Positions 2,064-42,846 of a stretch of 43,813 bases of DNA are shown here, one piece after another. The stretch covers positions 1 to 43,813 of the forward strand of contig CAADGB010000404.1 in NCBI GenBank assembly GCA_900696455.1, written 5' to 3'. Each line of letters begins with the position of its first letter. Position 1 is the first letter of the stretch. A program made the translations under genes and the position numbers. The notes under the pieces are model-generated. The model ran no database searches. It worked only from the letters and a program-made list of their open reading frames with translations, and was not told where the DNA came from. Source of the stretch: an uncultured delta proteobacterium (GTDB lineage: Bacteria; Myxococcota_A; Polyangia; Haliangiales; Haliangiaceae).

Positions 2064-2923
2064 GACGACGCCTCGGCCGCGCGCTGCTCCGCGTACGTCT
2101 TCGGCGCGTCCGGGTGCATCGCGGCGTAGAGCCGGCGGAACACCTGCGCCGCTTCCCAGCACCACAGCGGACCTGACTTCCACCCTTCGCACTCGGGCGG
2201 ATCGCTGTTGCCCTGGTCGCACCACGCCTCCCACCATGCCCGGCTCTGCTCGCTCGGCGTCGCGTCGGACACGTACGACATCGCCTCGCGGACCTTGGCG
2301 ATGCGATCCAGGACGGGGTCGAGCTCGACGCCCGCCTCGGCCGCCGCGTCCTCGATCGTCGTGCCCCACAGGCCGTTCTTGGCGTTGTACGTGAGCGGCG
2401 TGCGCTTGACGTCGTCGGCCGCGAAACGGTCGGCGCAGGCGTCGCACGCGTCGTACTCCTCGTCCTCGGTCTCGACATGGACCGTCGCGCGTCGACGGCA
2501 ACCCTCGCCGTCCGGTGGCGTCGGGCAATCGCACCGCGGGCGCTCGGCTTCGCGGTCCTCGTCGAGCTCCTTGCGCCGCTCGCGCTCGCACTCGAGGAGG
2601 TGCGCCATCGCGTCGCCGAACATGAACTCCTTCTTGGCGCCGTCGTCGCACGCGCGCAGCTTCTCGAGGAAGTAGTCGCGCGACCCGGCGTAGAGCCACC
2701 ACGCGAGACCGTTGGCGTCGCTGTGCCGGAACGCGAACTCGCCGATGTCGCCCCACACGAACACGACGCCGGGCGCGGCGAACACGTTGAACGAGTAGAT
2801 GCCGGTGCCGGGCTTCGCACACCGCCAGGTCCCGTCATCACGCTTCGTCAGGACGTGGTCCTTGAACGACTCGGCGGCGAGACGTTCGATGAGGGCTGAT
2901 TGCTCTTTGCTCGTGCGTGACAT
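2060..2923 (-). CDS. Hypothetical protein with Cys-rich insert
   Basis: This 287-residue protein starts at ATG 2923 behind AAGGACCGACC, the conserved initiation element of this genome. A central Cys cluster (CDC, then C, then CDAC spread over about 40 residues near 150-190) looks like a structural zinc site. A preceding acidic helix is rich in Glu and Arg. The C-terminal part is rich in Trp (WWEAW, WCWE). There is no recognisable catalytic motif. It follows a 120-bp gap with a long hairpin, so it may head its own message. Function unknown. Confidence 0.8.
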   Translation of the reverse strand: MSRTSKEQSALIERLAAESFKDHVLTKRDDGTWRCAKPGTGIYSFNVFAAPGVVFVWGDIGEFAFRHSDANGLAWWLYAGSRDYFLEKLRACDDGAKKEFMFGDAMAHLLECERERRKELDEDREAERPRCDCPTPPDGEGCRRRATVHVETEDEEYDACDACADRFAADDVKRTPLTYNAKNGLWGTTIEDAAAEAGVELDPVLDRIAKVREAMSYVSDATPSEQSRAWWEAWCDQGNSDPPECEGWKSGPLWCWEAAQVFRRLYAAMHPDAPKTYAEQRAAEASS

Positions 2924-2953
2924 GGTCGGTCCTTGCTGGTGAATCCGTGGGGA

Positions 2954-3007
2954 CCCGCCACCGGGTGTCACTCGGCCTCGGCCGTGTGGGGCTTTCCCGG
3001 TGGCGGG
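2954..3007 (-). other. Long stem-loop between endolysin and next gene
   Basis: CCCGCCACCGGG (2954-2965) and CCCGGTGGCGGG (2996-3007) form a perfect 12-bp inverted repeat. The loop itself contains CGGCC-TC-GGCCG (2973-2984). No T-run follows on the minus strand, so it is not a standard intrinsic terminator. It could be a processing site, an mRNA-stabilising element or an attenuator ahead of the 2060-2923 gene. Confidence 0.7.
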
Positions 3008-3043
3008 CTCAGGCGCGTTACCGATCGCTCGGCTCGCGCAGAG

Positions 3044-3895
3044 CTAGTATTTGTTGCCCTTGTAGGCGGGGTTCCACGCCTCGGGGATGGTCATGCCCTT
3101 CCCGATCTTGAAGGTCGGGCCGCCGTCCTTGAGGCCGAGCTCCTGCTGCATCGGCAGCACGATCGACTTCCAGATCGCCGAGCCGGGGGCGCTTTGACGC
3201 GTCCCGCTCGACTGGCGGTGTGCGACGAGCGCGCGGATGTTGCCGCCGCTCGCGGCGACGCGCGCGACGATCCACCTGATGACGTCGTGGCCGGCGGTGA
3301 TCATGGCCGGCGTCGGAACCATCTCGCGCCGGTTCGGCTCCGTCGCCGGCTTCCACAGCGTGCGCTCGTCGCCGGCGATGCCGGCATAGGTGCCGTTGAA
3401 CTCGATGCCGACGCACTGCTCGTTGAACCCGTGACCGTGGATCACGATGCGGTTGAAGTCGTGGAGCCAGAACTTCCCGCCACCGCGGCCGACGACGATG
3501 TGGGCGCCGACGGACCGGAGGCGCTCGCGCGTCTCCGCGAACACGCACGCCGTCTGGTGGATGCAGATGCCGGTCACCCGCTTCCACGAGCGCGGACCAC
3601 GATCGTCGTCGCGGTCGGATTCGAGGCGCATGTCGACGAGCCCCGGCGGATCGGGAGGCATCGCCGGCACGGTGAGCAACGCGTAGATGAAGTTGAGCTC
3701 GTGGTCGCTGATGACGTCGCGCTCGTTGTCGTTCGGTGCCACATCGCCGTGATCGGCGAGGACGCGATCGACAGCACCGAGGGTCTCATCGCCGAGGGCA
3801 CCGTCGGCACCGAACCGGGGGAGCTTTTTACCGAGGAGCAGGATCGCCTTCTGGAGCTTGACGACTTCCTGTCCCTTGTCACCGCGCTTGAGCAT
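3044..3895 (-). CDS. Endolysin: peptidoglycan-binding domain plus amidase_2
   Basis: This 283-residue lysin has an N-terminal peptidoglycan-binding domain (about 1-70, with LKRGDKGQEVVKLQ) and an N-acetylmuramoyl-L-alanine amidase domain (about 105-250). Family hallmarks are the zinc-ligand-type His in CIHQTA (H113), GHGFN followed by GIEFNG, and a second His in AHRQ (H226) followed by APG and IW. It should cut the bond between MurNAc and the peptide to lyse the host. The ATG at 3895 is chosen because AAGGAG lies 6 bp ahead; a GTG three bases earlier sits too close to it. No signal peptide is seen, so export probably needs a holin. A gene encoding an HExxH peptidase precedes it. Confidence 0.93.
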   Translation of the reverse strand: MLKRGDKGQEVVKLQKAILLLGKKLPRFGADGALGDETLGAVDRVLADHGDVAPNDNERDVISDHELNFIYALLTVPAMPPDPPGLVDMRLESDRDDDRGPRSWKRVTGICIHQTACVFAETRERLRSVGAHIVVGRGGGKFWLHDFNRIVIHGHGFNEQCVGIEFNGTYAGIAGDERTLWKPATEPNRREMVPTPAMITAGHDVIRWIVARVAASGGNIRALVAHRQSSGTRQSAPGSAIWKSIVLPMQQELGLKDGGPTFKIGKGMTIPEAWNPAYKGNKY

Positions 3896-5866: not shown

Positions 5867-6028
5867 TCACTTGCCTTTCCGGTTGGCGCGCTCCTCGAGC
5901 GTGCCGCAGAGGACGACGATGAACGCGCACGCCAGCAGCATGTAGCCGACCGGCTCGGGCGCGGTGATGGCGACGTAGATCCCGAGCGCCAGGATCGCGA
6001 GCTTGAGGGCCGTGTTGATCACACGCAT
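5867..6028 (-). CDS. Small two-helix membrane protein (possible holin)
   Basis: A 53-residue protein from ATG 6028. It has two hydrophobic segments (about 5-22 and 26-43) joined by a short PEPVG turn, and a charged C-terminus ending ERANRKGK. The size and two-helix topology fit class II holins. It lies four genes ahead of the endolysin in the same operon, which is compatible with a lysis role. Other small membrane proteins in the window (23616-23852, 6341-6460, 7553-7645) compete for the same role. It overlaps the upstream HNH gene by 10 bp. Confidence 0.7.
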   Translation of the reverse strand: MRVINTALKLAILALGIYVAITAPEPVGYMLLACAFIVVLCGTLEERANRKGK

Positions 6029-6351
6029 GACGGGACCTCGTACGGCGTTCGCAGCCCGAGGAGACGACGGGTCTGCTCGATGCCGTCGTCCTCGAATTCG
6101 GTGCGCTGCGACTTCGACATGCCCTTGAAGGCGCCGTTGCTCTGGTGAAACTCGCCGTGATGCCCGCGGCAGAGCGGCATCCCGTCGTGATCGTGCGCTC
6201 GGCGGTCTCCGCCCTTCACCGGCGGACGCGCGACGCGGCCGGTGATGCGGTGGTGGATCTGCACCTCGCCGACGCATGGCGTGAGACCGCACGGTGCGCA
6301 GCAGTGCAGCCGCGTCACGCGAGCGGCGTAGTCGGGGTCCTCACCGGCCAC
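6019..6351 (-). CDS. HNH-type nuclease, Ref/DUF968-like
   Basis: This 110-residue protein has a Cys/His metal site: CC and CGLTPC upstream of VQIHHRITG, then HDGMPLCRGHHGEFHQ. The IHH and LC-x-x-HH pattern is that of HNH nucleases. The layout resembles phage Ref/DUF968 proteins, of which P1 Ref is a RecA-dependent HNH nuclease. The start is GTG 6351, 10 bp inside the preceding small gene; no upstream ATG fits. It may cut recombination intermediates or host DNA. Family-level assignment is good; the Ref relation is an inference from motif spacing. Confidence 0.75.
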   Translation of the reverse strand: MAGEDPDYAARVTRLHCCAPCGLTPCVGEVQIHHRITGRVARPPVKGGDRRAHDHDGMPLCRGHHGEFHQSNGAFKGMSKSQRTEFEDDGIEQTRRLLGLRTPYEVPSCV

Positions 6352-6460
6352 GGCGCGACCTCCACGGCCACGGCGCGACGTCGAGCGCGGCGGCGACGAA
6401 CCCGACGCAGCCGAGCGCGACCAGGCCGATCGCGAAGGCTATGCGGCGCACGGGCGTCAC
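6341..6460 (-). CDS. Small single-helix membrane peptide
   Basis: A 39-residue frame starts at GTG 6460, overlapping the queD stop as GTGA, and ends at TGA 6341-6343, 10 bp inside the HNH gene. It has one hydrophobic segment (about 7-27, AFAIGLVALGCVGFVAAA) flanked by basic residues. The overlaps at both ends fill what would otherwise be an odd 105-bp hole in a tightly packed operon, which is the main support. No function is visible; a membrane-acting peptide is plausible. Confidence 0.55.
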   Translation of the reverse strand: MTPVRRIAFAIGLVALGCVGFVAAALDVAPWPWRSRRGR

Positions 6461-7080
6461 CGCTGCGTCCTGTCCACGGTGTCGGCGGTGTGCTCGTCGA
6501 GCGGCGCGCGGTTGAGCGCGTCAACGCGCTGGCGCACACGCGAGCGATGGTCGGCGACACGCTGATCGGCGTCCTCCTCGGGCGAGGGAACGCCTGGCGG
6601 CCGACCGACGCGGACGTTACGCAGGCGGACCACCGACTCGAGCGTCACGGTCGCGGAGCAGTTGGGCGTCTCGAAGATCGTGACCTCGGCGACGCGGACG
6701 CCGGTGTCGGCCAGGAGCTCCTCGGCGAGGCGCGCGAGCTCGGCGGCGATCACCTCGGCGGTGGGTTCGCCGGGGAACACGTACGGCGGACGCTGGCCGC
6801 GGTCGCGCGCCTGGTTGACGCAGAACATGCGGAGCGCCTCGTCGTCGACGTTGACGAGCGTGGCGTGGTCCCACGTGCGATCGATCCAGCCGCCGACGCG
6901 CTCCTTGATCACGCCGAAGTCGACCACGCGGCCCTTGTCGTCGAGCTGGTCGGCGATGCAGGTGATGAGCGCGGTGTAGCGGTGACCGTGGAGGGTGGCG
7001 CACTTCGACTCGTGGCGAAGCACGCGGTGCGCGGCGTCCCACTCGAGGCGACGAGTGCAGGTCGTCGGGGCCGGTCTCAT
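6457..7080 (-). CDS. queD: 6-carboxy-tetrahydropterin synthase (QueD/PTPS family)
   Basis: This 207-residue protein has the QueD active site: zinc His in DAAHRV, catalytic-type Cys and two zinc His in KCATLHGHRY, the FGVIK and WDHATLVN segment with the Asp-His pair, PTAEVIA, and the substrate-binding Glu in FETPN. QueD turns 7,8-dihydroneopterin triphosphate into 6-carboxy-5,6,7,8-tetrahydropterin on the way to preQ0. In phages this pathway usually feeds 7-deazaguanine DNA modification. The last 50 residues, rich in Arg and Asp, extend past the usual 120-150-residue enzyme. The start ATG overlaps the lipoprotein gene (ATGA). FolE, QueE, QueC and DpdA are not seen in this window. Confidence 0.9.
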   Translation of the reverse strand: MRPAPTTCTRRLEWDAAHRVLRHESKCATLHGHRYTALITCIADQLDDKGRVVDFGVIKERVGGWIDRTWDHATLVNVDDEALRMFCVNQARDRGQRPPYVFPGEPTAEVIAAELARLAEELLADTGVRVAEVTIFETPNCSATVTLESVVRLRNVRVGRPPGVPSPEEDADQRVADHRSRVRQRVDALNRAPLDEHTADTVDRTQR

Positions 7081-15386: not shown

Positions 15387-16457
15387 TTAGCTCGGCTGGA
15401 CGCCGGTTCCGTCCTGGATGGTCTGCGACGGGTCGGGCTTCTTCTTCGAGGCCTTCTCGCCCTTGCCCTCGGGCTTCGCCTCGGACTTGCTCGAGGTGGC
15501 CGCCTGCTGCGCCGTGGACGTGTCGGCCGCCGGCGCAGCGGTCGCCGGCGCGTCGGCCTTGGGCGCGTCCTGGGGCGTCGTGGTGGGCGCGGTGACGTCG
15601 CCGACCGCGGCCGTCGACGGCGCCTCGTCCTCGGGCGGAGGCGGAGCAGCCTGGCCGTCGTCCTTGCCGTGGATGCGCTCCACCCACGACGCGAAGTCGG
15701 TGACCTCGAAGTCGCGGAGCGGCCGGTACGGCTTGAGCAGCATGTAGTCCGGCCCCACGGTCGCGATGCCGTAGGTGTACGTGGCGTCACCGTCGGCTCC
15801 CTTGTCGCCGCGCTTGCGGTACGTCACGCCGACGACGTTGACAGCCGCCGCGACGACGTCCGCGAGCTTGTGCATCGGGAACTGCGGTCCCACGACGCGC
15901 ACCTTGTTATCGTCCTTCCCGACGTCGCGATCGGCCATCTGGCACAGGTAGACGACGTGGACCGGCGTGTCGCGGAACGCGCGGATCAGCTTCGTCACGC
16001 GATCCTGGAGGACATTCCAGTAACGCTCGGAGTCGACGGGGAGTCCGTCCTTGCCGGTGGTCTGCGGCGACTGCTCGCGGATCTCGGCGATCACGCGGTC
16101 GCACGCGTCGGTGAGGGAATCGAGCACCACCGACTCGGGCCAGACGTCCGACGTGAACAGGACCTCGTTGGTCGCGTTCATCACGACGAACGGCTTGTTC
16201 TTGTCGCCGTGCAACGCGCGGAGCACGTTGCGGTAGTCGTCGAGCGTCTCCATGAACAGGATGCCGCACAGCTTGCGACCGAGGCGCTTGGCCGCCGCGC
16301 GGACGTGGACGAGCCCCTGACGCTCCGAGAGGAGGATCAGCGGGAACGGGGCCGACGCACCGAAGTTGGTCTTTCCCGAGCCTGGCTTGCCGTACACGAG
16401 CACCTTGACCAGGTGCTCCAGGATCGAGCTGTTGTCGTCGAGCATGAGGTTCTTCAT
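15387..16457 (-). CDS. Sak4-like RecA-fold recombinase ATPase (AAA_24)
   Basis: A 356-residue protein. Walker A is GKPGSGKT (23-30) and Walker B is VVLDSL (110-115); the core spans about 1-240. The arrangement is that of AAA_24/Sak4 phage proteins, a short Rad51/RecA-like group that anneals single strands. The C-terminal 115 residues are a low-complexity Ala/Pro/Lys/Glu tail, longer than in most relatives, that ends with basic KKKPD. SSB follows directly and a RecB/Cas4-like nuclease precedes it, making a recombination module. ATP binding is clear; annealing activity is inferred from family. Confidence 0.87.
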   Translation of the reverse strand: MKNLMLDDNSSILEHLVKVLVYGKPGSGKTNFGASAPFPLILLSERQGLVHVRAAAKRLGRKLCGILFMETLDDYRNVLRALHGDKNKPFVVMNATNEVLFTSDVWPESVVLDSLTDACDRVIAEIREQSPQTTGKDGLPVDSERYWNVLQDRVTKLIRAFRDTPVHVVYLCQMADRDVGKDDNKVRVVGPQFPMHKLADVVAAAVNVVGVTYRKRGDKGADGDATYTYGIATVGPDYMLLKPYRPLRDFEVTDFASWVERIHGKDDGQAAPPPPEDEAPSTAAVGDVTAPTTTPQDAPKADAPATAAPAADTSTAQQAATSSKSEAKPEGKGEKASKKKPDPSQTIQDGTGVQPS

Positions 16458-16486
16458 CGTTGAGCTTTCCGTGTGATGGGTTCTTG

Positions 16487-16984
16487 TTACGGGTGAGCGT
16501 TGTTGTCGTCGTGATCGTCGTCGTCACCGTCGCCGGTGTCACTGTCGTCGTCGTCGTCGTCGTCCTCGCGCGGCGGGTTGTCGATCGTCGACGACGAGCC
16601 GGTGAACAGGCCGAGCTGCGGTGACTTCATCTCTGCGAGCAGGTCGCGGATCTTCTGCTCCGACGACTTCACCGCGTCGACGGCGGCCTTGCAGACGTCC
16701 TTCCGCTCGGCGCGCGCCTCCTCGAGGTCCTGCCACCGCTGCTCGCACACCGACAGCTTGAGGATCTGATCGGCCTCCGACTGATGGCCGACCTCCATGG
16801 CCTCCTTGAACGCGGCCAGCCGCGCCTCGAGCTTTTCCTTCGTGCGCTTCCGCTCCTTGACGGCGAACTCGCGGCACGTCTCCCAGCGGGTGAACAACAT
16901 GAGGAGCTCGCCGGCGCGCTCGGCGACTTCGGCGTTGCTGGGGTCGGTCAACTCGGCGGCGACTGCGTCTTCGATCGTGGCCAT
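16487..16984 (-). CDS. Coiled-coil protein with poly-Asp tail
   Basis: A 165-residue protein from ATG 16984 behind AAGGAGAGACC. Residues 20-120 form a long charged helix/coiled coil (KERKRTKEKLEARLAAFKE). The tail is very acidic, with seven Asp in a row and further Asp-rich repeats. Near it is LGLFTG, which resembles a QxxLF clamp-binding peptide (QLGLF), although this is speculative. It lies between the RecB-like nuclease and the Sak4-like genes. It may be a DNA mimic or an adaptor for the recombination machinery. Family unknown. Confidence 0.75.
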   Translation of the reverse strand: MATIEDAVAAELTDPSNAEVAERAGELLMLFTRWETCREFAVKERKRTKEKLEARLAAFKEAMEVGHQSEADQILKLSVCEQRWQDLEEARAERKDVCKAAVDAVKSSEQKIRDLLAEMKSPQLGLFTGSSSTIDNPPREDDDDDDDSDTGDGDDDDHDDNNAHP

Positions 16985-17013
16985 GGTCTCTCCTTGCGCG
17001 GTTTGCGGTCGTA

Positions 17014-18261
17014 TCACGCGGGGGTGTCGGCTTCGGCTTCCGCCTCCCGGACCTCCGTGTGGATGTCGTCGACGACGCGGAACTGCCCGCGCAGCTCGAC
17101 GGATTCGGGATCGAGGCAAAGCTGACGGTACTCGCACTTCATCGACCACGCCATGGAACAGTGGCCAGGGTTGCGCGTGCGCGCGTCGGGGTTCCGGTTC
17201 GCCTCGCGGATGCGGGATGCGTCCATGAACGCCTCGCGCCGCCACCGCTCGATCTCAGCGGGCGTCCGCTGGTACTCGACGCGAGCGAAGAACGTGTCGC
17301 CCTTGTCGGCGAGCTCCTTCGCCTTCGCGTACTGCTTCTCGGTGACGGGGATCTTGCGGACGTTCGCCTGCTCGTCAAGCGCGGCGACGTACATCGTCGC
17401 GAGCGTATCGATCGCCGCCACCGACACCGTGCCGTCCTGGTTGACCTTGGGCGTTGACGGCACCTTCTTCTTGCAGGCGTTGTACGAGAGCCGACCGACG
17501 ACGGCATCGCGCGGCACGGGTTCGCCGGTGGTCGCCAGCTTGAGGCGGCCGGCCGCGAGGTCCTCGATGAGGCTGTTGATGTACGTCGTCGTCTGCGGAT
17601 CCATCTCCGCGCGCCGATCGATGTCGCGCGGGTTCTGGCCGACGGTCTTGTGCTCGTGGAGGTCGAGCGCGTTGTAGGTCGGATCGTAGAACACGGCGTC
17701 GCGCACGCCCTGCGAGATGAGGTGCTTGACCGGACGGCCACGCACGTCGCGCAGCGGCACCGAGAACGGAGTCTCGGTCTCGACGAGGATGAGGCGCTCG
17801 AGGTCGCCGCGGGTGACGTGGAAGTAATGGCCGAGCATCCACTTCACCATGGCCGCCGTCTCCTCGGCCTCGGTCGCCAGGCGCTCGAAGTCGAGATCGC
17901 GGCCGTGCTCGATGCGCTTGGCCATCCACTTGTTCACGAGGTCATCGATCCCCGACGTCGCCGCGGCGGTCTGCTTCGCCACGCGCTGCTCGATGTCGAG
18001 GCCGTCCACGTCGAGCCAGCCAGCGCGGAGGCCGGTGGACATGCCGCGGTGGAAGATGGAGCCGATGGCGAGCGCGGGCGCGTCGACCTTCGTGCGGAGC
18101 TTCTCGCGGTACTTGAAGTGATGCTTCTGGAGGCAGTCGCGCGCCGTCTGCGTCTCCGAGGCGGTGATGATGGTGAGCGCGGCCGAACGACGTGCGCGAC
18201 GCGGCGGCTCCGCACCGTCGACGACGTCCTCGATGTTCGCGAGGTCGGGGCGCGCCTCCAT
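17014..18261 (-). CDS. RecB/Cas4-like PD-(D/E)xK exonuclease, probable Fe-S cluster
   Basis: A 415-residue protein. The nuclease core shows GVRDAVF (D188), ALDLHEHKT (D200, E203, K205) and the RecB motif QTTTY (223-227). A Cys near the N-terminus (RDCLQKHH, C43) and a C-terminal group (GHCSMAWSMKCEYRQLC) have the 1+3 layout that holds a 4Fe-4S cluster in Cas4 and AddB enzymes. It should degrade one strand of DNA ends to feed the Sak4-like recombinase. The start is ATG 18261 (TGATG with the previous gene). The assignment is strong for fold; the cluster is inferred. Confidence 0.86.
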   Translation of the reverse strand: MEARPDLANIEDVVDGAEPPRRARRSAALTIITASETQTARDCLQKHHFKYREKLRTKVDAPALAIGSIFHRGMSTGLRAGWLDVDGLDIEQRVAKQTAAATSGIDDLVNKWMAKRIEHGRDLDFERLATEAEETAAMVKWMLGHYFHVTRGDLERLILVETETPFSVPLRDVRGRPVKHLISQGVRDAVFYDPTYNALDLHEHKTVGQNPRDIDRRAEMDPQTTTYINSLIEDLAAGRLKLATTGEPVPRDAVVGRLSYNACKKKVPSTPKVNQDGTVSVAAIDTLATMYVAALDEQANVRKIPVTEKQYAKAKELADKGDTFFARVEYQRTPAEIERWRREAFMDASRIREANRNPDARTRNPGHCSMAWSMKCEYRQLCLDPESVELRGQFRVVDDIHTEVREAEAEADTPA

Positions 18262-18470
18262 CACACGAGCCCTTTCTGCTCGGCGAACCACTGCGAGATG
18301 ACGAGCTCGCCGCGGGTGCCGGGCTCGTAGACCTCGGAGTTGTCGTCGATCTGCGACTGCGGGATCCACACCTCCTTGCCGTCGACGGCGACCAGGAGCG
18401 CGTCACCGCTCTTGCTCTCCTTGATCGCCCGGCAACCGGGGAACGTGGCCTTGTTCTCGAAGTCCGGCAT
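18261..18470 (-). CDS. Small conserved phage protein next to exonuclease
   Basis: A 69-residue protein from ATG 18470, coupled on both sides by TGATG. The pattern AIKESKSGDALLVAVDGKEVWIP and then SQIDDNSEVY resembles small beta-barrel proteins found next to phage exonuclease and SSAP genes. No catalytic residues. Probably an accessory to the recombination module, judging by position only. Confidence 0.72.
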   Translation of the reverse strand: MPDFENKATFPGCRAIKESKSGDALLVAVDGKEVWIPQSQIDDNSEVYEPGTRGELVISQWFAEQKGLV

Positions 18471-18824: not shown

Positions 18825-20390
18825 TCAGATGGCGAACACCGCCGAGCTGATCTTCGACGTGTCGCCCTTCGTGCAGTCCTCGCGGCCGAGGACGAGCGAT
18901 TCGTCGGCCGCCGCCTTGAGGTGCTCGGGCGGGTTCTGGCCGATGCCGACGTAGTACAGGTGGCCGCCGCGGTTCTTGATGCGCTCGATGGCCTTGTTCT
19001 GGACCTCCACGTCCCACGAGTCGCCGTCGGTCACCAGGACGACGTCGGCGCGCTTCCAGGGTCCCTCGTTGCGCTCCATGACATCGGCGGCCTCGGTGAG
19101 CGCCGCGCCGATCGACGTGCCACCGCCGGTGAAATGCATGGCGGCATCCTCGATGCTGGCGAGGGTCATCTCCGACGGGTTGAGCCATTCGTCAACGCGC
19201 GTCACACCGCCGTCGAAGTGGATCAGGTACGCCGGCCGCTTCTGGCGTGCGGCGATCTCGAGGAGGCCGCACATGACGGCCTTGCTCCATTCGTCCGGCG
19301 CGCCGGACATCGAGCCCGACTCGTCGACGGCGAGGATGATCGGCCCCTCGCTCCGGTGTTCCTTGCCGCGGAGCTCATAGTTGAGCGCCGACCCTTCCAT
19401 CAGGCGGCGGTAGAGCAGCGCCTCGGTCGTCTCGTCGGCCAGGTTGCCGAGCTCGACGGGCAGCAGGCGCTGGAGGTTGTCGCCGGCGGTGACGTCGCAC
19501 AGCTCCTCCGCGCCCGGCCGCGCCTTCGTGCGCTGCTTCGCGATCGCGGCGGCCTTCATGCGGCCGGCGAGCTTCGCGATGCGGCGGAGCTTGTCGTTCT
19601 TCATGAGGGCGTCGCGGAGGACCTTCGGCGGCAACTTCACCGTCGAGCGGAAGCCCGACCCTTCGCCCGCGCCGAGCGCCGCCATCGCGCCCTCCATCTC
19701 GTCGATCGCCTCGTTCGCCGCAACGCAGCCCGCGCGGAGCGCCGACCGGATCGACGGCGCGCGGTGCGCGAGCATCTGCGTCGCCTGCCCGACCTCCTCC
19801 TTGGCGGCCTGGAGCTGGCGCTGGAGCGCGGCCAGGCGGCGCATGTGCGTCGGCGAGGTCTTCTTCCCTTCGCCACCCTCGCCGGCCATGAGCGACTTGA
19901 CGAAGTCGAGCTCGTCCTGGATCTGCTGGGGGTCCTGCGTCGGCGGTTGGACCTGGCCGGCGACGACCTTGAGCGCCTCGCCGGCCGCCACGCCGCACGC
20001 CCACGCGTCACGCCGGGCGCGCTCGCGGAGCGCGCGGTACTCGGGCAGGGCCTCGGCGGTGTCGTGGAGCTTCTCGACCCACTCCGAACCCTGGGGACGG
20101 TCCTCGGCGGGGACGGGCTTCTCTTCGGTCGCGCCGTAGAGCTTCGTGAAGACCTCGCGCGCGAACCCGGCCCACGCGGGGCCCTTGTGCGGCTCGAGGG
20201 CTTCGCCGAACGAGCCGCCGGCCGCGGCCTCGGTGCCCGCCTGGTAGCGGTCCCACTTGGACACCGCGATCGTCTGATCGCGGCCGGTGCGTACCTCCTT
20301 GGGTCCGTCGAACAGCGACGCGCGCGCGGCTGCGTCGGTGCGGTCAGTGGGTCCACGGAAGGGTTGATTGGTCGGTCGGGTCTGGCGCAT
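18825..20390 (-). CDS. vWA (ViaA/CoxE-like) protein
   Basis: A 521-residue protein. The C-terminal von Willebrand A domain (about 348-515) has a full metal-ion adhesion site: DESGS (D356, S358, S360), GGGTS (T425) and VTDGD (D455). The N-terminal 340 residues are helical and basic, as in E. coli ViaA, the partner of RavA. The upstream gene encodes a RavA/MoxR-like ATPase, so the two likely form an ATP-driven chaperone pair in the cytoplasm. The start is ATG 20390 behind GGAGACCGACC; an ATG at 20453 sits in the -10 box and cannot be used from that promoter. The target is unknown. Confidence 0.87.
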   Translation of the reverse strand: MRQTRPTNQPFRGPTDRTDAAARASLFDGPKEVRTGRDQTIAVSKWDRYQAGTEAAAGGSFGEALEPHKGPAWAGFAREVFTKLYGATEEKPVPAEDRPQGSEWVEKLHDTAEALPEYRALRERARRDAWACGVAAGEALKVVAGQVQPPTQDPQQIQDELDFVKSLMAGEGGEGKKTSPTHMRRLAALQRQLQAAKEEVGQATQMLAHRAPSIRSALRAGCVAANEAIDEMEGAMAALGAGEGSGFRSTVKLPPKVLRDALMKNDKLRRIAKLAGRMKAAAIAKQRTKARPGAEELCDVTAGDNLQRLLPVELGNLADETTEALLYRRLMEGSALNYELRGKEHRSEGPIILAVDESGSMSGAPDEWSKAVMCGLLEIAARQKRPAYLIHFDGGVTRVDEWLNPSEMTLASIEDAAMHFTGGGTSIGAALTEAADVMERNEGPWKRADVVLVTDGDSWDVEVQNKAIERIKNRGGHLYYVGIGQNPPEHLKAAADESLVLGREDCTKGDTSKISSAVFAI

Positions 20391-20452
20391 GGTCGGTCTC
20401 CGGGCGTTCGGGGCGTTAGGGTCAAGCGGCGTCGGAAGCCGCCAACCCGTCA

Positions 20453-20481
20453 TTTGTACCCCGCTGGACGTACGGTGTCAA
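20453..20481 (-). promoter_or_regulatory. Promoter of the vWA gene
   Basis: TTGACA (20476-20481) and TACAAA (20453-20458) are 17 bp apart on the minus strand. A CGTACG palindrome (20469-20474) lies in the spacer next to the -35 box, as at 9499-9536. Transcription would start about 60 bp before the vWA ATG. The gene thus has its own promoter although it follows the ATPase gene. Confidence 0.78.
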
Positions 20482-20544: not shown

Positions 20545-21720
20545 CTACAGGCCGAGGGCGGCCGTCGCGTCCTTGCGGAGCTGCTTGTAGCGCTTGTCGA
20601 GGTCCGCCTTGAGGGCGGCGATCTTCGGCTTGGCGCTGTCCTTCGCCGCGGTGGCGAACCCGTCGATCTTCTCCATGGCGCGCTTGAGCTCGCGCGTCAT
20701 GGTGGTGACCTTCGTGGCGTAACCCTCGTCGGTCTTCGCCGGCAGCTCCTGGAGCAGGCCCACCATGGCGTCGACGATCTCCTGGACCTCGGCGAGCTCG
20801 GCCGACGCGTACCGCTGGACGATGGGGTTGATCTGCGCGATCTGCGCGGGCGTGTCCCACATGACGTGAGCCAGGATCGGGAAGTGGTCGGGGGTCACCT
20901 CGGGGTCGCCCTCGAACCAGGCCACGGCGCGGAGGATGCGCGCCGCCTTGCGCCACCGGCGATCGCTCGCGACGACGCCGACACCGCCGAGGTCAGCGCG
21001 GAGCTTGAACAGCTCCTCCACCGTCGCGTCCGGGATGGCCACGGCGTCGACGTACGCCTGAGCGGCGTGGAGCTCGTCGAGCGTCACCGTCGCCGTGATC
21101 GACGGCTCGGAGCCGGTGAGCAGGCGGCGGAACGCCTCGGGGGTCTTCGTGTACGCCGTCCAGTACCGGAGCATGAAGCGGTCGTAGAGCGCCGCCAGCT
21201 CGGGACCCTCGGGGAGCTCGTTGGACGCGCCCACGACGGTCTCGAGCGGGATCGCTGACCGGCCGCCATCGTTGTCGAACGCGCGCTCGTTGAGCGCCGT
21301 GAGGAGGCTGTTGAGGACGGCGCTGTTGGCCTTGAAGACCTCGTCGAGGAACGCCACCGACGCCTCGGGCAGCTTGTTCGCGGTGACGCGGCGGAACACG
21401 TCGGTCTTGAGGCCGTTGAGCGACACCGGCCCGAACAGCTCCTCGGGGGTCGAGAACCTGGTAAGCAACCACTGGAAGTAGGTGCCGCCGAGCGCGGTGC
21501 AGAACGTGTGCGCCAGCGCCGACTTCGCCGTGCCGGCCGGCCCGAGGATGAGGACGTGCTCGCGCGCCAGGGCGGCGAGGATGACGCCGTGGATCTCGCG
21601 GTCGCGCTCGGCGAGCGTGCCGTTGAGCTGCTTCTCGATGTCCGAGAACTTCGCGCGGAGCGCGGCTGCGGTCGGGAGCGTGGTCGCGGTGGTCTCGGCG
21701 GTGGCGGTGGTCTTCGTCAT
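20545..21720 (-). CDS. RavA/MoxR-like AAA+ ATPase
   Basis: A 391-residue protein. Walker A is GPAGTAKS (60-67), Walker B is VAFLDE (122-127) and sensor 1 lies in GASNELP (N167). Segments TPEELFGPVS and LNSLLTALNER are typical of the RavA branch of MoxR ATPases. A C-terminal helical part (about 290-391) is rich in Lys and may dock the vWA partner. MoxR ATPases with vWA proteins remodel or assemble target complexes. The start is ATG 21720 behind AAAGGACCGACCAGCC, and its own promoter lies 45-75 bp ahead. The family call is strong; the role in a phage is unknown. Confidence 0.9.
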   Translation of the reverse strand: MTKTTATAETTATTLPTAAALRAKFSDIEKQLNGTLAERDREIHGVILAALAREHVLILGPAGTAKSALAHTFCTALGGTYFQWLLTRFSTPEELFGPVSLNGLKTDVFRRVTANKLPEASVAFLDEVFKANSAVLNSLLTALNERAFDNDGGRSAIPLETVVGASNELPEGPELAALYDRFMLRYWTAYTKTPEAFRRLLTGSEPSITATVTLDELHAAQAYVDAVAIPDATVEELFKLRADLGGVGVVASDRRWRKAARILRAVAWFEGDPEVTPDHFPILAHVMWDTPAQIAQINPIVQRYASAELAEVQEIVDAMVGLLQELPAKTDEGYATKVTTMTRELKRAMEKIDGFATAAKDSAKPKIAALKADLDKRYKQLRKDATAALGL

Positions 21721-21765
21721 GGCTGGTCGGTCCTTTCGATTCATGGTTCGTGAAAACGTGCGTCA

Positions 21766-40568: not shown

Positions 40569-42412
40569 CGGGGCTGACCTCCGACGCGGGTGCGGGCCTC
40601 GTCCTGCTTCGTCAACCGGACCGTCCAGTCGAACGCGCGCCGCTCGGGCGTGCCGCTCGCGACGTAGGGCTGGCGCTGGATCGCTTCGCCGTCGCGTGCG
40701 TCGCCGCGCACCTCGATGTAGTGCTCGTCGCCCGGCTGGAGCTGGCCGGGGAACAGGACGCTGATGTTGTCGACGGTGTACCGCGGCGACAAGCCCTCGA
40801 GCACGACCTCGCCGCGCGAGACCTGACCGGCCGCGCGAAGCTCCCTGTTCACCGACGAGATGTTCTTCACCTTAGGCGTCGGCAGGAACGGCAGCTCGGA
40901 GATCACGCGCGGCTCGCCGCGGTGACGTTCGCCGCCGCTCCACCGCACGACGATCGACCACACTTCGTAGGTGCGGAGGCCGGCGTCGCCGAGCGCCTGG
41001 CGCGCCTCGTCCATCATGGCGGCCGAACACGAGGCGATCGTGTTCGCCGGCGCGCGATGGAGGCGTCGATCGAGGTCGGGGGTCTGACCCGGCCGCGGCT
41101 GGCGCGGCGCTCGCTCGTGAGCTCGCCGCGGCGGAACCGCGATCGGCACGCGAAAGATCGCCGGCAGGTCGAGCCGGATCTCTCCGGTGAGCGTCGCATC
41201 CGCCAGGGTCACGGTGAGCTCGCCGGTGGTGCCGTCGCCCACAGCCGCCGCTGCGAGGGTCGCGTCGGCGAGCGTGACCGTCAGGCCGCCCGTGATCGGC
41301 GACGTACCGGCCGCGGCCAGGGCCGCCGGTGCGAGCGTGATCGTCGCGGTCCCCGTGATCGTCGCGTCGCCGTCGCCGGCCAGCGTGGCGTCTTCGAGGG
41401 TGACCGCGAGCTCGCCCTCGATCGGCTCGCCGCCTCCGCCGGCGACGAGGGCGGCGTCGTCGAGCGTGATCTCGAGCGTACCGACGATCGGCAGGTCGCC
41501 AGCGCCGGCGACGGTCGCATCCTCGAGCGTGATGGTGAGCGTTCCCGTGGTGACGACCTCTCCATCGGCGTCGAGCGTTGCATCGTCGAGGACGACATCG
41601 AGCGTTGCAACGATCGGGACGTCGCCGGTCGCCGCCAGGGTCGCAGCATCGAGCGTTACCGTCAGGTCGCCGGTGATCGGATCGTCGCCGGTCGCCGCAA
41701 CGGTGGCGTCGTCGAGGGTGACGTTGAGCGTGCCGTCGGTGCCGGCCGCGGCGTAGGTGAGCGTCGGGTTCGACTCTCCGCCAACCATGCGGCGACCGAA
41801 CACCGTGAGCCGGACACTACCGGCCGCGGCTGGCGTACCGACACCGACACTCGCGATCAGCGTCCAGCCGGCCGGCGTCTCGAGTTCCTCGTTGGCCGTC
41901 TGCGCGACGAGAAGGCTGTAGAACGTCCCGTCGGTCCCGTAGATGCCGAGGTCGACGACGACGTTGTCCGCTCCCTCGGCAATCGTGCCCACGCCGTACG
42001 TCGACGGAAGCGAGCCGCCGTTGCTGCGAAGCGCGAACGAGATGTTCGCTTGCTTCGTTGCGCCTCCGTCCCAATTCGACCCGAACGTCCCGCAGTTGCC
42101 AGCGGTGACCTTGTTTCCCGATCCCGAGAAGAAACCACCGCCGACACCGAACGTTCCCTGCATCCACCAGGCGAACGACATGCCGGTGAGCGCCGCGTTC
42201 GTCCAGCTCGACGAGCCGACAAAGGACGCCGTGTCGAGTGCGCCGCCTGAAAGGCCGAACACGGCGCAGTCGTTGTCCGTCGTCGTGCCGGCGACGATTG
42301 ACACCGGAGCCGCGGCCGGATCGACCACCGCCGTCGTGATCGCCTGAAAGGGCGTGCCCGACGAGAGCACGTCCCTGACGACGATGTTCCTGGCGATGAT
42401 GTGGTCGGCCAT
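40565..42412 (-). CDS. Neck/virion protein with 21-residue tandem repeats
   Basis: A 615-residue protein from ATG 42412. Residues 1-226 form a beta-rich Gly/Thr-rich domain. Residues 227-411 are eight full and one partial copy of a 21-22-residue repeat (consensus G-L-VTL-DATLAATGD-PIT). A low-complexity Arg/Pro segment (about 425-460) links to a 150-residue domain (MMDEARQALGDAGLRTYEVW, then ISELPFLPTPKVKNIS) that looks like a separate neck protein. The frame is open all the way and no ribosome site precedes the internal ATGs, so I treat it as one fused protein. The N-terminal part could be a surface adhesin. Confidence 0.78.
   Translation of the reverse strand: MADHIIARNIVVRDVLSSGTPFQAITTAVVDPAAAPVSIVAGTTTDNDCAVFGLSGGALDTASFVGSSSWTNAALTGMSFAWWMQGTFGVGGGFFSGSGNKVTAGNCGTFGSNWDGGATKQANISFALRSNGGSLPSTYGVGTIAEGADNVVVDLGIYGTDGTFYSLLVAQTANEELETPAGWTLIASVGVGTPAAAGSVRLTVFGRRMVGGESNPTLTYAAAGTDGTLNVTLDDATVAATGDDPITGDLTVTLDAATLAATGDVPIVATLDVVLDDATLDADGEVVTTGTLTITLEDATVAGAGDLPIVGTLEITLDDAALVAGGGGEPIEGELAVTLEDATLAGDGDATITGTATITLAPAALAAAGTSPITGGLTVTLADATLAAAAVGDGTTGELTVTLADATLTGEIRLDLPAIFRVPIAVPPRRAHERAPRQPRPGQTPDLDRRLHRAPANTIASCSAAMMDEARQALGDAGLRTYEVWSIVVRWSGGERHRGEPRVISELPFLPTPKVKNISSVNRELRAAGQVSRGEVVLEGLSPRYTVDNISVLFPGQLQPGDEHYIEVRGDARDGEAIQRQPYVASGTPERRAFDWTVRLTKQDEARTRVGGQPR
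41180..41734 (-). repeat. 63-66-bp in-frame tandem repeats
   Basis: Eight complete units and one partial unit encode the repeated peptide in the 40565-42412 gene. Six of the complete units are 63 bp and two (starting at residues 311 and 375) are 66 bp. The peptides have diverged, with conserved VTL, DATL and PIT positions, so the array is old or under selection. It is a coding repeat, not a CRISPR. Confidence 0.9.
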
Positions 42413-42453
42413 GGGCGCGCGCGCCGGGACTCAGCGCGCCCGGCGCTCTCCGA

Positions 42454-42846
42454 TCAGGCGTTGCCGTCGGTGATGGTGAAGGCCGTGATCGTCACCGACT
42501 GGCCCACCGCGATGTTCGTGTTGACGAGCTGGAGATCGCCGCCTCCGCCGCTCGCCGTGACCGAACCCTGGATGTGGCACGTGGCACCGGCCTTGATGCG
42601 GAAGTGACCGGCCACGCCGGCCGCGTCCGCGGCGAGGTCCTCCCACGTGCCCGACTTCGCCTTCGCGCCCGCCGCCGCCGCCATCCAGTCCGCGGGGAGC
42701 GCCATGGACGCGAGGAGCGTGCCCGTGTCGGCCGCGGCGCAGTTGGCCGGGGCTGCACCGGAACGGATCTCGAGGGTGGGGCTGGCACCGATGACCGTCT
42801 CGATCGAGTCGAGGCGGCCGTTACGAACTGCGACGGAGAGCTGCAT
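42454..42846 (-). CDS. Small virion protein (decoration-like)
   Basis: A 130-residue protein from ATG 42846 behind AAGGACGCTCACC. It is made of short strands with Ala/Gly turns (LEIRSGAAPANCAAADTGTL, then FRIKAGATCHIQGSVTASGG). The type is common among virion proteins encoded near phage neck genes. No enzymatic signs. The structural role is inferred from position. Confidence 0.7.
   Translation of the reverse strand: MQLSVAVRNGRLDSIETVIGASPTLEIRSGAAPANCAAADTGTLLASMALPADWMAAAAGAKAKSGTWEDLAADAAGVAGHFRIKAGATCHIQGSVTASGGGGDLQLVNTNIAVGQSVTITAFTITDGNA

Follow-up and report, generated by a model that had tools for sequence, protein, structure and literature searches.

The window, meaning the whole 43,813-nt stretch of DNA that was analyzed, carries on its minus strand a 615-aa open reading frame with an ATG start (42412-40565) whose product is a three-part chain. 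As proposed in the first-pass annotation and upheld here, an N-terminal domain is followed by tandem repeats and a neck-type C-terminal domain. The frame is single and uninterrupted, and its two halves meet at residues ~411-416; each half has free-standing relatives, and a second front end is found in the IMG/VR phage L003. A surface cassette has probably become joined in frame to the native N-terminus of the stopper, giving stalks anchored at the neck as a collar or whisker. The cassette would consist of an N-terminal globular domain and a stalk of 21-residue beta-type repeats, and the acceptor would be the native proline-rich N-terminus of the only recognisable stopper gene of this phage. 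Within this reading, the single fusion chain with its stopper domain is better supported than the projection of the repeats as a whisker.

Repeat array and N-terminal domain

Based on lag and unit analysis, residues 227-396 form eight full repeats of 21, 21, 21, 21, 22, 21, 21 and 22 aa, followed by a partial ninth copy of 14 residues (397-410). The whole array extends from 41734 to 41183 on the minus strand, within one codon of the 41180-41734 first reported, and the earlier count of eight to nine copies was confirmed. The consensus is about GTLTVTLDDATLAATGDxPIT. Self-identity of the protein at lag 21 was 0.41, far above the maximum of 0.26 obtained from 1000 composition shuffles over all lags from 5 to 49. 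Mean pairwise identity between copies was 55% at the amino-acid and 70% at the nucleotide level (79% for the top DNA pair), and Tandem Repeats Finder reported in the array only a 1.9-copy, 66-bp stretch (41387-41513), which points to an old array that has diverged in DNA. The repeat is therefore real and not freshly amplified. With copies this dissimilar in DNA, and no close sibling for comparison, the suggestion that copy number and length vary by recombination was not borne out. A close relative with this array was found neither in INPHARED nor among the genome and viral contigs: tblastn searches of INPHARED returned nothing for the full-length protein, its repeats or its neck domain, and no relative was revealed by a repeat-only scan of the viral contigs or by a scan of the genome contigs.

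The 615-aa protein had no match in PHROG or Pfam, and a Pfam scan at E values up to 1 revealed no fibritin and no named adhesin family. The N-terminal domain (residues 1-226; 42412-41735, minus strand) likewise gave no match to Pfam, PHROG or PDB sequences, the PDB yielding only chance matches, and its profile matched no other genome among 379 genomes of the phylum. The adhesin-like character first proposed for it thus has no database match behind it. An AlphaFold model of residues 1-440 (pLDDT 39.7) was too poor for structure search.

The 224 N-terminal residues were 44% identical to part (6001-6648) of a 463-aa protein of IMG/VR phage L013, an otherwise different and unrelated phage. In that protein the homologous domain is followed by a repeat of the same 21-residue period and by a short tail; in contrast to the focal protein, the repeat sequence and the phage backbone are different and there is no neck (stopper) domain. 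A tblastn search of INPHARED with the L013 protein returned nothing. The gene preceding it resembles, by eye and unscored, the gene upstream of the focal gene (42454-42846, minus strand), a virion structural protein of PHROG 3758 (E 4.6e-29) and a possible partner in the cassette. In Pan4 and Mae-JY02, which have PHROG-3758 relatives, proteins with repeats of ~20 residues are encoded two genes on. L013 and these PHROG-3758 neighbours suggest that the front end may be a mobile surface cassette. The repeat proteins of Pan4 (L014 6331-8223) and Mae-JY02 (L016 6481-8373) are closely similar to each other, each ~630 aa in length with many ~20-residue GTASGTLDLTGSATGAVRVA-type repeats. A large open reading frame of L013 (7801-10392, minus strand) appeared terminase-like by eye and contains an apparent intein-like insertion (CWEGGIVVEKRRGMIALRDVCVGDHVLTHAGRFRRV ... 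VENDHSFVYEGVAVHNS).

C-terminal domain and gene neighbourhood

The C-terminal ~160 residues are, by modelled fold and gene position, most likely a stopper/head-closure protein. The domain (residues 459-615; 41038-40568, minus strand) was modelled with AlphaFold from seven sequences as residues 455-615, giving moderate scores (pLDDT 73.5, pTM 0.69) and an N-terminal helix with a beta barrel. The best solved match was neck protein gp7 of cyanophage A-1(L) (Z 9.3), followed by the necks of NF5 (8.6) and SaPI1 (8.4); the rows with Z above 8 numbered three and were all phage neck entries (8kef_A, 9m6x_S, 9mu3_C). The next matches, at Z 6.5-7.5, were connector, stopper or neck entries of phiXacJX1, FCWL1, T1, GTA, SPP1 and XM1, including the T1 stopper (7.3), GTA (7.1), the SPP1 connector (6.9) and the XM1 neck (6.5). 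A search of BFVD with the model gave head-to-tail stoppers among weak matches. Most of the structural Z values lay between 6 and 8, and since tail tube and terminator barrels score in the same range (6-6.7), the fold by itself is not diagnostic of a stopper. The label was therefore assigned from the top structure rows together with gene position, the structural lists also containing tail tube and terminator proteins.

Only one homologue of this domain is present on the focal contig. One homologue, L002, belongs to the same genome but to a different contig and was 57% identical over 180 residues; further ones were found in the IMG/VR phages L003 and L007, and profile searches added homologues from other genomes (L005/L018, L010, L011 and L019-L024). 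The stopper homologue lies directly before the Neck1, terminator and sheath genes in the focal phage, L002, L003 and L007, and a Neck1-like gene also follows it in L005/L018, L010 and L011; for L019-L024 no Neck1 profile match was obtained within their short flanks. Fold, gene position and homologues thus all back the neck-type domain first read from the sequence.

Downstream of the focal gene, and overlapping it by ATGA, is a Neck1/tail-completion gene (40568-40041; phrog_5, E 5.6e-11), followed by a probable tail terminator (40044-39349), which had no family match and was assigned by position, the order being kept in L002, L003 and L007. Next are a tail sheath-like protein (39352-37136), assigned from its position and a weak Gp18 domain match below the Pfam cut-off, and a tube-like protein, with a Baseplate_J gene further on; all three coordinates given are on the minus strand. 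Based on the sheath-like, tube-like and Baseplate_J genes, the phage, whose contig belongs to a bacterial genome assembly, was judged to be contractile-tailed. Elsewhere in the window, also on the minus strand, a MoxR-type AAA ATPase (20545-21744) adjoins a VWA-domain protein (18825-20453), both matching PHROG families, and a Sak4-like annealing protein/AAA_24 (15387-16457) and a PD-(D/E)XK nuclease (17014-18369) make 15387-18369 a probable recombination module.

Proposed disposition of the front end at the neck

The stopper part would take its place in the neck as a probable hexamer, the state reported for XM1 (PMC10457771), A-1(L) (PMC10966104) and phage 812 (PMC12886913). The N-terminal arm would exit at the adaptor-stopper junction, and up to six repeat stalks, each tipped by the N-terminal domain, would stand out around the neck. 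Such a collar or whisker, covalently anchored, may touch the host surface or stabilise the neck. An extension reaching the outside at this junction is plausible because the N-terminal helix of A-1(L) gp7 hooks the adaptor ring (PMC10966104) and the termini of the phage 812 stopper are in contact with surface decoration proteins (PMC12886913).

The stoppers SPP1 gp16, XM1 gp4 and A-1(L) gp7 share with the focal protein the predicted N-terminal helix and beta barrel and the same gene place, upstream of Neck1, terminator, sheath and tube, whereas ~410 extra N-terminal residues with repeats are present only in the latter. Gp97 of phage 812 is likewise a stopper with an extra surface domain in the chain, an external beta-sandwich (PMC12886913); however, the extra part of the focal protein is N-terminal and much longer, and in the excerpts of the phage 812 report no tandem-repeat stalk is described for gp97. 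Neck appendages are also formed by the XM1 collar spike gp40 and the A-1(L) neck fibres gp82/81/80, but those are separate proteins docked via their own N-terminal domains (PMC10457771, PMC10966104). The focal repeats, unlike an XM1-type collar spike, are in the same frame as the C-terminal stopper domain, and the appendage is predicted to be covalent and C-terminally anchored. A whisker would also resemble the neck fibres of T4 fibritin (wac), although fibritin is encoded by a separate gene in T4 and the focal protein is without a Pfam match. A neck whisker is plausible only by analogy with these systems.

Instead of projecting, the front end of the fused chain might lie against the neck or the capsid vertex and serve as a decoration or collar that stiffens the neck. 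This would be consistent with the external beta-sandwich of the phage 812 stopper and the neck decoration proteins of that phage (PMC12886913), with the sheath-like collar of Milano, which is without fibres (PMC10491603), and with the membership of the neighbouring gene in PHROG 3758, a head and packaging family. Such packing, which overlaps the preferred reading until its last step, is rather doubtful: a series of eight repeats capped by a large terminal domain would suggest a stalk, and other phages have long repeat proteins with repeats of similar period.

Projecting stalks fused to the stopper would, if real, represent a direct covalent route for putting exchangeable surface modules on a conserved ring. 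A still more specific version, in which the stopper itself grows whiskers as up to six covalent stalks with their N-termini distal, modules being exchanged at a fixed point and collar contact being coupled mechanically to the genome gate of the DNA-retaining ring, is at present speculative.

Probable fusion point and translation start

Among the 13 members of the family, 11 are free of a large fused front end; the stopper stands alone in L002, L005, L007, L010, L011 and L019-L024. In most of these the start lies no more than about 20 residues from the core (e.g. MSLRDDLLPLFD...). In the focal protein the core is preceded by a proline-rich arm (residues 411-458; 41182-41039, minus strand) with a TPxxDxxLHRxP motif common to L002 and L003. 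In L007, a close relative of L003, the stand-alone gene opens with GTG-ADDE-LPPLPIEV immediately behind the stop codon of its upstream neighbour, and the arm is therefore an N-terminal extension native to the stoppers of this clade. Between L003 and L007, dN and dS were 0.14 and 0.51 for the arm and 0.12 and 0.62 for the core; based on this resemblance, the arm is translated and under purifying selection. L003 carries in frame before the arm ~190 residues unrelated to the focal front end, in a gene with ATGA overlaps with both neighbours. Two mutually unrelated front ends are thus joined in frame at nearly the same point; a tblastn search of INPHARED with that of L003 returned nothing. Given that relatives have stoppers which are unfused or differently fronted, the focal front end looks like a swappable surface module. 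The position immediately ahead of the LPPLPIEV-type arm would then be a natural acceptor point, one that can be sought in other phages.

No stop codon separates the focal repeats from the arm, which they reach at residues ~411-416. The frame being open from the repeats through the neck domain, a product started at 42412 includes the latter, barring an indel in the contig. Two proteins could nevertheless arise from one frame, the stopper being produced by an internal start or by cleavage in the proline-rich arm and the repeat protein being separate. A split of this kind near residues 430-466 had been named in the first-pass annotation, and the relatives support it in so far as they encode the neck protein separately; in L002 the stopper ATG overlaps the stop (TGATG) of a separate upstream gene in another frame. 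It also agrees with a GGAGAG preceding CTG codon 416, the expected start position of the native gene, and with the collar gene of Milano, once misannotated as a longer protein (PMC10491603). The focal frame itself argues against it, since it is open from 42412 to the end of the neck domain and includes, at residues 411-467, no ATG, GTG or TTG served by a good ribosome site. A candidate relic ribosome site at residues 410-411 was rejected, 7.6% of internal codons being equally good by chance. Separate production of the two parts is accordingly considered unlikely. An indel in the draft contig, artificially joining what are two genes in the actual phage, is very improbable. Although this is a single draft assembly with one copy of the phage, relatives have separate genes and one indel between residues 411 and 443 would be enough to mimic a fusion, L003 independently shows an in-frame fusion at almost the same position and third-position G+C is steady at 0.80-0.82 throughout residues 401-460.

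A point against the fusion reading is the weak start of the focal gene. The ribosome site at the focal ATG was scored at -2.2 kcal/mol, compared with -3.4 to -10.2 at seven neighbours, and no Shine-Dalgarno sequence is nearby. A GGAGAG lies ~31 nt upstream (42413-42456, minus strand), and the interval from there to the ATG includes an 8-bp inverted repeat (GCGCCGGG...CCCGGCGC). The inverted repeat could bring the GGAGAG closer by looping; the predicted folding of the hairpin was no better than that of shuffles (z -0.27).

A 552-aa open frame in L002 was considered as a further fusion and rejected, being an out-of-frame reading with the upstream repeat gene in another frame. That upstream gene (2208-3155, minus strand), on a second phage-like contig (C267), encodes a GxVxG-type repeat protein directly before the stopper gene.
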